Of a stretch of 64,000 nucleotides of DNA, positions 57,596 to 59,765 are shown piece by piece. The notes under the pieces are model-generated. The model worked only from the letters and a program-made list of their open reading frames with translations, had not been told where the DNA came from and searched no databases. The position numbers and the translations under genes are program-made. This DNA is from Pirellulales bacterium. Lineage in GTDB: Bacteria; Planctomycetota; Planctomycetia; Pirellulales; Lacipirellulaceae. The stretch lies in assembly GCA_019636345.1 (NCBI GenBank), contig JAHBXQ010000002.1, positions 248,001 to 312,000 of the forward strand, read 5' to 3'. Each line of letters begins with the position of its first letter. The stretch's first letter is position 1.

Positions 57596-59146
57596 TCACA
57601 CCGTTTCCGGCCGCGTCTTCGGGTCGACGCCGGCGCCGGTGGCCACGCGGTTGATCGCGTTGAGGAACGCCCGCACGGCGGCTTCGACCGTGTCGGTGCT
57701 CACCCCCCGGCCGCGGACGAGTTGGCCGTTGTGCTCGACCTCGATAATGCTTTCGCCCTGGGCGTCTTTGCCGCGTGTCGCGCTCTGAACGCGAAAGTCG
57801 CGGACCACGACGGACACGCCCGTGATCTCCTCGATCGCGTGGAACAAGGCGTCGAGCGGCCCATCCCCCTCGGCGATCGAATGCGTGCGACTCTCGCCCC
57901 CGCGGGTGAGCGTGAGGGTCGCCCGCGGCGCCCCGGCCGACGAGGCCTGCACCTCGTACGCTGCAAGCTGCCACTGATCGCTCACCAGGGCGTTGCCCTG
58001 TTCGATCAGGGCCGCGATATCGCCGTCGTAGACCTCCTTCTTCTTGTCGGCCAGCTTCTTGAACTCGGCGAACACCTGATCGAGTTGGTCGCCCGAGAGG
58101 TGAAAGCCCAAGGCCTTCGCTCGATCGGCCAACGCGGCTCGGCCGCTGTGCTTGCCGAGCACAAGATCGGTTTGCGTGAAGCCCACGTCCTCGGGCCGCA
58201 TGATCTCGTAGGTGGTCGGCTCCTTGAGCATGCCGTCCTGGTGAATGCCCGACTCGTGGGCGAAGGCGTTGCGGCCGACGATCGCCTTGTTGCGCTGGAC
58301 TGTCATCCCGGTGATCCCCGACACCAGCCGACTGGTCGGGACGAGCCGGGGGGTGTTGATCCGCGTGTCGACGCCGTAATAGTCGTGCCGCGTGCGGAGG
58401 GCCATGACGATTTCTTCGAGCGAGCAGTTGCCGGCCCGTTCGCCGATGCCGTTGATCGTGCACTCGACCTGCCCGGCCCCCGCCTCGACGGCGGCCAGCG
58501 AGTTGGCGACCGCGAGCCCCAGGTCGTCGTGGCAGTGAACGCTGATGACCGCCTGATCGATGTTGGGGACCCGATTGCGGAGCGTCGCGATGACGTGGCC
58601 GAAATGAGCCGGAGTGGCGTAGCCGACCGTGTCGGGGATGTTGACGGTCGTCGCCCCCGCGGCGATCGCGGCCTCGACCACCTCGCACAGGAAGTCGAGT
58701 TCGGTGCGGGCGGCGTCCTCGGGCGAGAATTCGATGTTTGCACACCGATTGCGAGCCCGCGTCACCCCGGCGACCGCTCGCTCGACGATCTCCTTTTTAT
58801 CCATCCGCAGCTTGAACTCGCGGTGGATCGCGCTGGTGGCGAGGAAGACATGGATTCGCGGGTTTTCGGCATGGGCCAGCGCATCGGCGGCTCGATCGAC
58901 GTCCTTTTCGTTGCAGCGGGCCAGCCCGCAAATCGCCGCACCGCGGACCACCTCGGCGATCGCTTTGACCGCTTCAAAGTCGCCGGGGGAGGCGATCGGG
59001 AACCCGGCCTCGATGACGTCGACCCCCAAGTCGACCAGCGCGTGAGCGACCTCGAGCTTCTCGCTCAGGTTCATGCTGCACCCGGGCGATTGCTCGCCGT
59101 CGCGGAGGGTCGTATCGAAAATGACAATGCTGCGGGAAGTCGACAT
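57596..59146 (-). CDS. leuA: 2-isopropylmalate synthase
   Basis: A 516-residue enzyme that condenses acetyl-CoA with 2-ketoisovalerate in the first step of leucine synthesis. The catalytic domain starts [19 protein letters not shown] (Arg15, Asp16), has [33 protein letters not shown] and the metal-binding [13 protein letters not shown] (HxH at 204-206), [15 protein letters not shown]. The C-terminal LeuA regulatory domain (about 390-516, [43 protein letters not shown]) binds leucine for feedback inhibition. The ATG at 59146 is preceded by a leucine attenuator (59295-59490). Confidence 0.96.
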
Positions 59147-59294: not shown

Positions 59295-59325
59295 AAAAAA
59301 ACCCCGAAGCCTGCGGGCCCCGGGG
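59295..59325 (-). terminator. leuA attenuator terminator
   Basis: On the minus strand CCCCGGGGCC (59325-59316), loop CGCA, GGCTTCGGGG (59311-59302) form a ten-pair stem (two G-U in the RNA), followed directly by seven T (59301-59295). It lies 35 bases past the stop of the leucine-rich leader peptide and 148 bases before the leuA start, the standard arrangement of an amino-acid attenuator. Confidence 0.85.
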
Positions 59326-59360
59326 CGATGACGTACGAGCAAAATGCGTGCGAACGAACC

Positions 59361-59414
59361 CTAGGCCCTCGTTAAGGGTGCAAGTAGCAGCAGGCCTAGC
59401 AGGTCGAGCGACAT
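59361..59414 (-). CDS. leuL: leucine-rich leader peptide of the leuA attenuator
   Basis: Eighteen codons encode MSLDLLGLLLLAPLTRA and a TAG stop. Eight of 17 residues are leucine, four in a row at positions 8-11. The codons used are CTC, CTG (three times), CTA (twice), CTT and TTA; CTA and TTA should be rare in a genome this GC-rich. No strong Shine-Dalgarno was seen. It is too short for routine gene finding but lies exactly where a leu leader peptide should, between a promoter and an intrinsic terminator upstream of leuA. Confidence 0.8.
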   Translation of the reverse strand: MSLDLLGLLLLAPLTRA

Positions 59415-59458
59415 CGGCAGTGCTGAAAGGGCTGGAGGCGATCGGGCGAACTCTTGCT

Positions 59459-59487
59459 GTTGTAATCGACCCGCCGGGGATGGTCAA
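59459..59487 (-). promoter_or_regulatory. leuA sigma-70-type promoter
   Basis: On the minus strand TTGACC (59487-59482), 17-base spacer, TACAAC (59464-59459). The -35 has five of six and the -10 four of six consensus bases. A start about seven bases downstream would give a leader of some 38 bases before leuL. Confidence 0.55.
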
Positions 59488-59513
59488 GGTTCGCCTTGCT
59501 GGGCTGCCGGGAC

Positions 59514-59765
59514 TCACTCGACGCTAAAAAACCGGGAGTCGGTTCCTCCCGGGCCGATCTTGAATTGGACACGTCGGGCGCACTTGGGGCAGTGCCCCAC
59601 GAACGCGTCGCCCGCCCTGGTACGGTAGATCCGCGAGTACGCTCCGCAGCAGTCGAACCGTACGCCGAGGTACCTCTCGGACTCGGTCCGCTGTTGCGGG
59701 GCGATCGCGGGGGGGGCCGCGTCGGGGACGGGGCTGGCGAGGTCGAGATGTTGGCCGACGAGCAT
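59514..59765 (-). CDS. small conserved planctomycete protein, zinc-ribbon-like
   Basis: An 83-residue protein. The first 30 residues are Pro/Ala-rich. The core is YLGVRFDCCGAYSRIYRTRAGDAFVGHCPKCARRVQFKIGPGGTDSRFF, with a CC...CPKC arrangement that could bind zinc. I recognise the pattern as recurring in planctomycetes but know of no function. It lies upstream of the leuA promoter on the same strand. Confidence 0.7.
   Translation of the reverse strand: MLVGQHLDLASPVPDAAPPAIAPQQRTESERYLGVRFDCCGAYSRIYRTRAGDAFVGHCPKCARRVQFKIGPGGTDSRFFSVE

Follow-up and report, generated by a model that had tools for sequence, protein, structure and literature searches.

The locus raises the question of whether a planctomycete adjusts its leuA gene through leucine codons in a short upstream leader. 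The window analyzed here, a whole stretch of 64,000 nucleotides, lies on one of the 15 contigs of a 5.18 Mb assembly; an earlier note had read a complete leucine attenuation leader upstream of leuA on its minus strand. Our analysis supports this reading. Judging from sequence, we put the probability that the leuA element is a ribosome-mediated transcription attenuator sensing the leucine supply at about 0.88; conservation in relatives, covariation of the RNA arms, and product-matched codons before the genes of citramalate synthase (cimA) and DAHP synthase all argue for it.

The promoter, the Leu-rich frame with its CTA and TTA codons, the stem with its first arm in the Leu codons, the competing pairing, and the hairpin with a U tract, all named in the earlier note, were recovered in the window (Table 1). 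The eight Leu codons of the leader comprised three CTG, two CTA, one CTC, one CTT, and one TTA. CTAGGCC (59399–59393) is complementary to GGCCTAG (59367–59361), and GGGCC (59368–59364) to GGCCC (59319–59315). The terminator (59326–59295) consisted of a hairpin at 59326–59301 with the loop CGCA, followed by seven T; the hairpin had 11 pairs with the closing G-T pair counted, where the note had given 10 bp. The RNA end is predicted near 59295. The product of the downstream gene scored 760 bits with NF002086 (cut-off 532) and 720 bits with TIGR00973 (cut-off 598.7). Among the matches listed, its closest relatives in named genomes had 70–72% identity and were titled Planctomycetota, Pirellulales, Pirellulaceae, and, in one case, "bacterium". 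A longer leuA frame beginning with TTG at 59296 was rejected as an unlikely start, homologue comparison placing the ATG at 59146.

Table 1. Features of the leuA leader region in the window and related elements elsewhere in the same genome
Feature	Position	Strand	Basis
Leader promoter: TTGACC 59487–59482, 17-nt spacer, TACAAC 59464–59459	59459..59487	−	Sequence reading
Leader peptide frame MSLDLLGLLLLAPLTRA, 18 codons, ATG 59414, stop TAG 59363–59361	59361..59414	−	Sequence reading and conservation
Segment 1: CTAGGCC within Leu codons, able to pair with segment 2	59393..59399	−	Sequence reading
Segment 2: GGGCCTAGGGTTC, includes amber stop; pairs with segment 3 (antiterminator) or segment 1	59356..59368	−	
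Segment 3: GCCCCGGGGCC, terminator 5' arm; alternative partner of segment 2	59316..59326	−	
Segment 4 and U tract: 3' arm GGCTTCGGGG 59311–59302, seven T 59301–59295	59295..59311	−	
Regulated gene leuA, 2-isopropylmalate synthase	57596..59146	−	Family score; start from homologue comparison
Ile-rich leader element before citramalate synthase cimA; RNA core similar to that of leuA	G000:C2:164362-164440	−	
Phe/Tyr/Trp leader element (FWFTYT) before DAHP synthase	G000:C1:402813-402908	+	

Taken alone, the window would not settle the attenuator reading; conservation does. The folding energy of the whole window leader was unremarkable (z −0.25, single-sequence folding), and its own 2:3 duplex was unexceptional against shuffles of segment 2 (p 0.14); segments 3 of other loci paired with the window segment 2 at least equally well in 63% of cases (rank 0.63). 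A Shine–Dalgarno-like site before the leader ATG was not apparent to the eye in the window. Upstream of the leader lies a frame of 83 residues with a CPKC motif (59514–59765, minus strand). The same-genus relative (L004) has an equivalent frame; in the window, the end of the frame is overlapped by a terminator-like hairpin (59552–59532), a stretch that differs in L004 when compared by eye.

Leader and terminator were searched for upstream of leuA by one rule: a frame of 9–45 codons in which Leu occurs five or more times and makes up at least 22%, and a GC hairpin with at least five T within 110 nt downstream. The rule matched 35/37 loci of the strain's own family, 64/83 loci of other families of the order, and 17/17 loci of one additional class family. 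In two families of the phylum that are more distant, the counts were 2/2 and 3/6, and elsewhere in the phylum sample 2/44, with 0/15 in the largest such family. In total, 123/189 leuA upstream regions matched, 116/137 in the order together with the one further class family; leader plus terminator preceded leuA in 68 of 82 genera. Controls gave 3/580 matches in dinucleotide shuffles of the 116 positive regions and 0/116 on antisense strands, and both strands of the 64-kb window contained one match, at the leuA leader. These counts come from samples of the matching relatives: 37 loci of the own family and 83 of other order families, where 214 genomes of the order (own family included) had matches, and 69 usable loci of 70 outside the order, where 102 of 214 phylum genomes matched. 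Loci L003, L006, and L172, which had no start motif, and L002 and L005, the second, citramalate-synthase-like matches of their genomes, were excluded from the leuA counts.

In the same-genus relative, the one other genome of the genus in the set, MTLSLLPLLLLLPDARA, a TTGACC-N17-TACAAC promoter equivalent to that of the window, and a terminator were found in the same order. Alignment of leuA upstream regions, which the earlier note had proposed as a check, showed the Leu-rich frame, terminator, and promoter to be conserved in close and distant relatives. The rule was not matched in 19/83 loci of the other families of the order, including 5/5 of family f7 and 4/5 of family f3. Leader-like frames were visible by eye in L056, L079, and L116, which the rule had missed, and R1, a covariance model built from 60 leuA elements, gave matches upstream of leuA for the L079 genome (E 0.09) and the L116 genome (E 3.9e-5); many other rule-missed loci of the order look empty. 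Among LeuA loci from titled genomes of many phyla, 79 of 80 were usable and six matched: planctomycete L253, L254, L256, and L258, one Ghiorsea, and one Spongiibacter. Of the planctomycete records in this set, the rule missed L257, L263, L264, and L286. In one of these, the Limnoglobus locus L257, a short frame MRTLLRLEELPIPNFRGRFFTS and then a hairpin were read by eye upstream of leuA. The Ghiorsea leuA locus (L300) has a Leu-rich frame MKVFTLYLLLLSDALLLCRIGWLTD and a terminator whose end lies 58 nt upstream of the gene's DTTLRDG-type motif; it may be a separate leucine attenuator.

Across relatives, the stretch from the last leader codons through the stop to the bases after it is approximately GGC(C/T)TAGGGTTCG, and the terminator 5' arm with the preceding bases approximately CGAACCC(T/C)GAGGCC, close to the reverse complement of the former. 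TAG was the leader stop in 100/121 loci and sits within the antiterminator. In loci L052, L111, and L124, the stop lies further upstream and a segment 2-like sequence still follows it by eye, which suggests that RNA segment 2 is retained even where the stop moves.

Covariation was scored in an alignment of 60 sequences, one per genus, selected for TAG stops. The terminator (3:4) had 91.1% of cells paired and a covariation of 0.434, with both sides changed in 9/10 pairs; the antiterminator (2:3) had 71.2% of cells paired and a covariation of 0.213, with both sides changed in 9/14 pairs. For both helices, the covariation was reached in 0/500 shuffles, all 500 shuffles were also exceeded in cells paired and cells changed on both sides, and all slid registers were exceeded in cells paired and covariation score. 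The number of antiterminator pairs changed on both sides showed no excess over shuffles (9 against a mean of 8.9), and neither did its further pair types (74/500 shuffles as high), so the support for the antiterminator is real but moderate. The 2:3 helix is also imperfect: two of ten main-helix pairs fail in 26 and 35 of the 60 sequences. The compensating base changes that the earlier note had looked to are strong in the terminator and moderate, being weaker, in the antiterminator.

Swapping segments between families in 73 genera worsened both helices, from −17.3 to −14.0 kcal/mol for 2:3 (p 3.7e-9) and from −18.4 to −11.9 kcal/mol for 3:4 (p 1.0e-13). The control segment, for which ranks only were used, its mean energies being meaningless (empty segments), gave p 0.64. 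This test, one locus per genus, was a repetition of a version with 120 loci (2:3 mean rank 0.29) that had included the cimA locus L002 and the likely false matches L133 and L180. The 1:2 pairing over the Leu codons, present in the window, was predicted on average across the 73 genera without a ribosome. When nascent RNA was folded with ribosome-covered bases removed, a 2:3 helix of at least five pairs formed in 71/73 genera with the ribosome stalled on Leu, in 0/73 with the ribosome at the stop, and in 43/73 without a ribosome; the contrast between stalled and at-stop states follows largely from the masking, and the model indicates a workable geometry rather than serving as evidence.

A promoter-like site (TTGACN-N16-18-TANNN(T/C), within 130 nt upstream of the leader) preceded 91/115 leaders, compared with 22/2300 mononucleotide shuffles, and its spacer was 17 nt in 81 of these 91. 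A standard promoter scan of the window reported no promoter; it misses the site because it requires T at the end of the −10 hexamer. The −10 box ends 6–8 bases before the leader ATG in 12/91 loci (L014, L022, L026, L040, L076, L077, L080, L085, L092, L098, L157, and L158). This closeness suggests leaderless leader-peptide RNAs, and in these 12 loci the leader may be translated from such an RNA, given the start codon chosen by the rule.

The codon usage of the leaders was strongly biased. CUA accounted for 224/877 Leu codons (25.5%) among the 20 codons that precede the stop in 121 loci, a stretch that takes in a few codons preceding the start of shorter leaders, and for 17/1623 (1.0%) over codons 1–400 of the 57 leuA bodies with enough sequence. 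Leader Leu was preserved through six synonymous codons. Both traits point only indirectly to translation of the leader. CUA can also pair with UAG; since it was distributed across Leu positions with no single fixed site, its bias is better explained by decoding sensitivity than by one pairing site. In the leu attenuator of Salmonella, the control codons are CUA, and changing them to CUG lowered sensitivity (PMC1183508, in excerpt).

Similar elements were found before other biosynthetic genes. R1 was run on 19 genomes and recovered the leuA elements together with strong matches elsewhere; in the window it matched 59295–59372 with 54.8 bits (E 1.3e-11), the window being one of its own training rows. 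Of the first 11 matches read away from leuA, eight had leaders containing Ile and lay upstream of citramalate synthase, and three had aromatic leaders and lay upstream of a DAHP synthase, the genes being identified by position. A further 25, mostly weaker, included eight before citramalate synthase or DAHP synthase with matching leaders and 17 without a matching leader; R1 also matches plain GC-rich terminators. Of seven matches in the own genome, six were listed, three with and three without matching leaders. The citramalate synthase of this genome (TIGR00977, 646 bits, cut-off 450) is preceded by MMPAPIAMIPIIPRRRP and a terminator, and one DAHP synthase by MAHAFYRSFWFTYTCPGGRAGGCA and a terminator. 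The Ile-leader cimA element corresponds to loci L002, L364, and L409, and the DAHP synthase element to loci L379 and L426. The aromatic leaders of relatives share an FWFSFT-like core and a GGGCCGGAGG-like stretch.

The Ile rule was fitted by 17/30 cimA loci with at least three Ile (loose), 15/30 with four, and 9/30 with five. Of 67 DAHP synthase matches, 30 loci were examined and 22 had an aromatic leader, a split of 22 with and eight without made after the matches had been seen. The N-termini of the eight DAHP synthases without leader differ as a rule, that of L418 being ambiguous; at L422 and L425 the finder picked another frame and an FWF-like core is present. Specificity was examined with one threshold (five residues, 20%) and 19 residue sets. 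In leuA, one locus per genus of the order, Leu answered in 55/69 loci, Ile in 0, and Phe/Trp/Tyr in 3; in cimA, Ile answered in 9/30, Leu in 3, and Arg in 4; in DAHP synthases with leader, Phe/Trp/Tyr answered in 22/22, Leu in 5, and Gly in 5. The other eight DAHP synthases had no match for the pathway residue. At the same threshold, no leader of the pathway residue with terminator was found in ilvB (30 of 33 matches sampled), leuC (28 of 28; L252 with almost no and L247 with little upstream DNA), both from the own family, trpE (24 of 43), or hisG (24 of 25); when the threshold was relaxed to four residues and 15%, Leu gave a match at one leuC locus. Upstream of ilvB, a conserved MVVLYSFTIPKRV-like frame resembled a leader but was rejected, being the C-terminal end of a syntenic frame that lies upstream. 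For cimA, the swap test gave a weak result (mean rank 0.41 for 2:3 and 0.39 for 3:4, n = 17), perhaps because cimA arms are alike between species; DAHP synthase gave mean ranks of 0.30 and 0.13 (n = 22). The match of codons to product across genes is the strongest argument that codons, not RNA alone, carry the signal, and it is what ribosome-mediated sensing predicts.

At the level of sequence, the leuA element has the features of a classical attenuator: a promoter upstream of the leader, a short frame rich in codons of the pathway product, an intrinsic terminator between leader and structural gene, borne out by covariation, and an antiterminator using the terminator 5' arm, which has moderate support and is unexceptional in the window alone. 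To the observed parts, their order and conservation, the 3:4 and 2:3 covariation, the codon bias, the promoter-like site, and the product-matched codons elsewhere, the proposed mechanism adds leader translation, ribosome stalling, termination, a role of the 1:2 pairing, and a response to leucine, all of which we infer. RNA polymerase would start at the promoter, and a ribosome would translate the Leu-rich leader. With charged Leu-tRNA scarce, the ribosome would stall on the Leu run and cover segment 1, leaving segment 2 free; segment 2, including the stop codon region, would pair with segment 3, and transcription would continue into leuA. With plentiful leucine, the ribosome would reach the amber stop and cover segment 2, 3:4 would pair, and transcription would end near 59295. 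Without translation, the 1:2 pairing would free segment 3 for termination.

Three other explanations were weighed. The leader could exert translational or Rho-dependent control, which has been proposed for some leaders of actinobacteria, with the hairpin stabilizing the RNA or serving an upstream transcript. The hairpin ends 50–617 nt (median 153) before the LeuA DTTLRDG motif in the 116 positive loci, which leaves room for control of leuA translation, but the covariation of the GC hairpin and the T run after it (the T run being also required by the search rule) speak against this explanation, and a promoter-like site between the upstream frame and the leader indicates that the hairpin does not just mark where transcription of the upstream gene ends; we give this explanation a very small chance. 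A slightly smaller one is left to the frame encoding a functional small hydrophobic peptide, membrane or toxin-like, with its own promoter and terminator, and leuA being transcribed separately. The peptide is indeed short and hydrophobic, and its frame is accompanied by a promoter-like site and a terminator; however, the frame is conserved before leuA, the chief place examined, and found nowhere else in the window, the similar elements of cimA and one DAHP synthase encode Ile or aromatic residues, the CUA bias is strong, and the last codons with the stop fall in the segment covarying with a terminator arm.

Least likely of the three is a leader that senses a ligand or a protein (a riboswitch, a T-box, or a site resembling the LEU element), the Leu frame being incidental; the pseudoknot of the LEU element before actinobacterial leuA, reported not to act by classical attenuation (PMC1262725, in excerpt), would be a precedent. 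Against it, the elements matched no Rfam family at gathering score: a scan of 20 loci found only a tRNA and an RNase P gene, both outside the elements, a scan of 12 loci found nothing, and T-box, as one family in the whole Rfam scan, had no match. In addition, the alignment had no conserved block outside segments 2–4, and the identity of the leader residues tracks the pathway. A T-box survey likewise found none in the single planctomycete genome it covered (PMC2494555, in excerpt).

With ribosome-mediated attenuation preferred, these bacteria very probably tune the leuA, cimA, and DAHP synthase genes by the ease of reading the codons of the scarce amino acid. We also find it fairly probable that planctomycetes of the order hold related attenuators at three pathway-entry enzymes (leuA with Leu, cimA with Ile, and one DAHP synthase with Phe, Tyr, and Trp in one leader), that the similar leuA and cimA cores may derive from one another with re-tuned control codons, and that transcription in a subset of leuA loci apparently begins at or next to the leader AUG, which would yield leaderless leader-peptide RNAs. 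The set of three product-matched elements is of more interest than the leuA element alone. If the reading is true, classical attenuation extends to a phylum for which we found no described case and to citramalate synthase, for which we likewise found none; ribosomes would follow RNA polymerase closely in planctomycetes, whose cell organization has been debated; and the three elements would lend themselves to simple reporter tests and, as a native set, serve as sensors for leucine, isoleucine, and aromatic amino acids.

The mechanism is classical, and the phylum and target set appear new within limited searches of the open-access literature. The earlier note knew of no planctomycete case; none was found either among the open-access matches listed, an absence that is not proof. 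A cimA leader was not found in the open-access search, the one paper joining the topics not concerning such a leader in the part available. A 2016 paper, in the excerpt available, counts leader genes of Planctomycetes for the distance to the next gene and cites a 2010 comparative study of attenuation (PMC4833913).

Among known systems, the leu attenuator of Salmonella and E. coli (leuL) is close. The planctomycete element differs from it in phylum, in the amber stop within segment 2, and in matching no Rfam leader family. Alternative hairpins and an intrinsic terminator are common to both. The enteric arrangement is a leuABCD operon, whereas leuC and leuA lie on different contigs in the own genome, so the enteric operon is not present here. 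Both have a Leu leader with CUA control codons (for the role of CUA, PMC1183508, in excerpt). The Leu-rich attenuator peptide of Staphylococcus aureus is reported as a case of leader-peptide branched-chain control outside Proteobacteria and Actinobacteria (PMC5794164); it belongs to an ilv operon, whereas none of the 30 own-family ilvB loci has such a leader. The actinobacterial LEU element shares the position upstream of leuA and includes Leu codons, but it is a pseudoknot reported as unlikely to act by classical attenuation (PMC1262725, in excerpt). In Corynebacterium glutamicum, the leuA leader has four consecutive Leu codons (PMC4046766, in excerpt), and the aroF (aroR) leader, which precedes a DAHP synthase gene, contains Phe-Tyr-Phe and allows read-through when Phe is limiting (PMC11802643, in excerpt). 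In contrast, the planctomycete aromatic leaders combine Phe, Tyr, and Trp, and are accompanied by an Ile-codon element before citramalate synthase.
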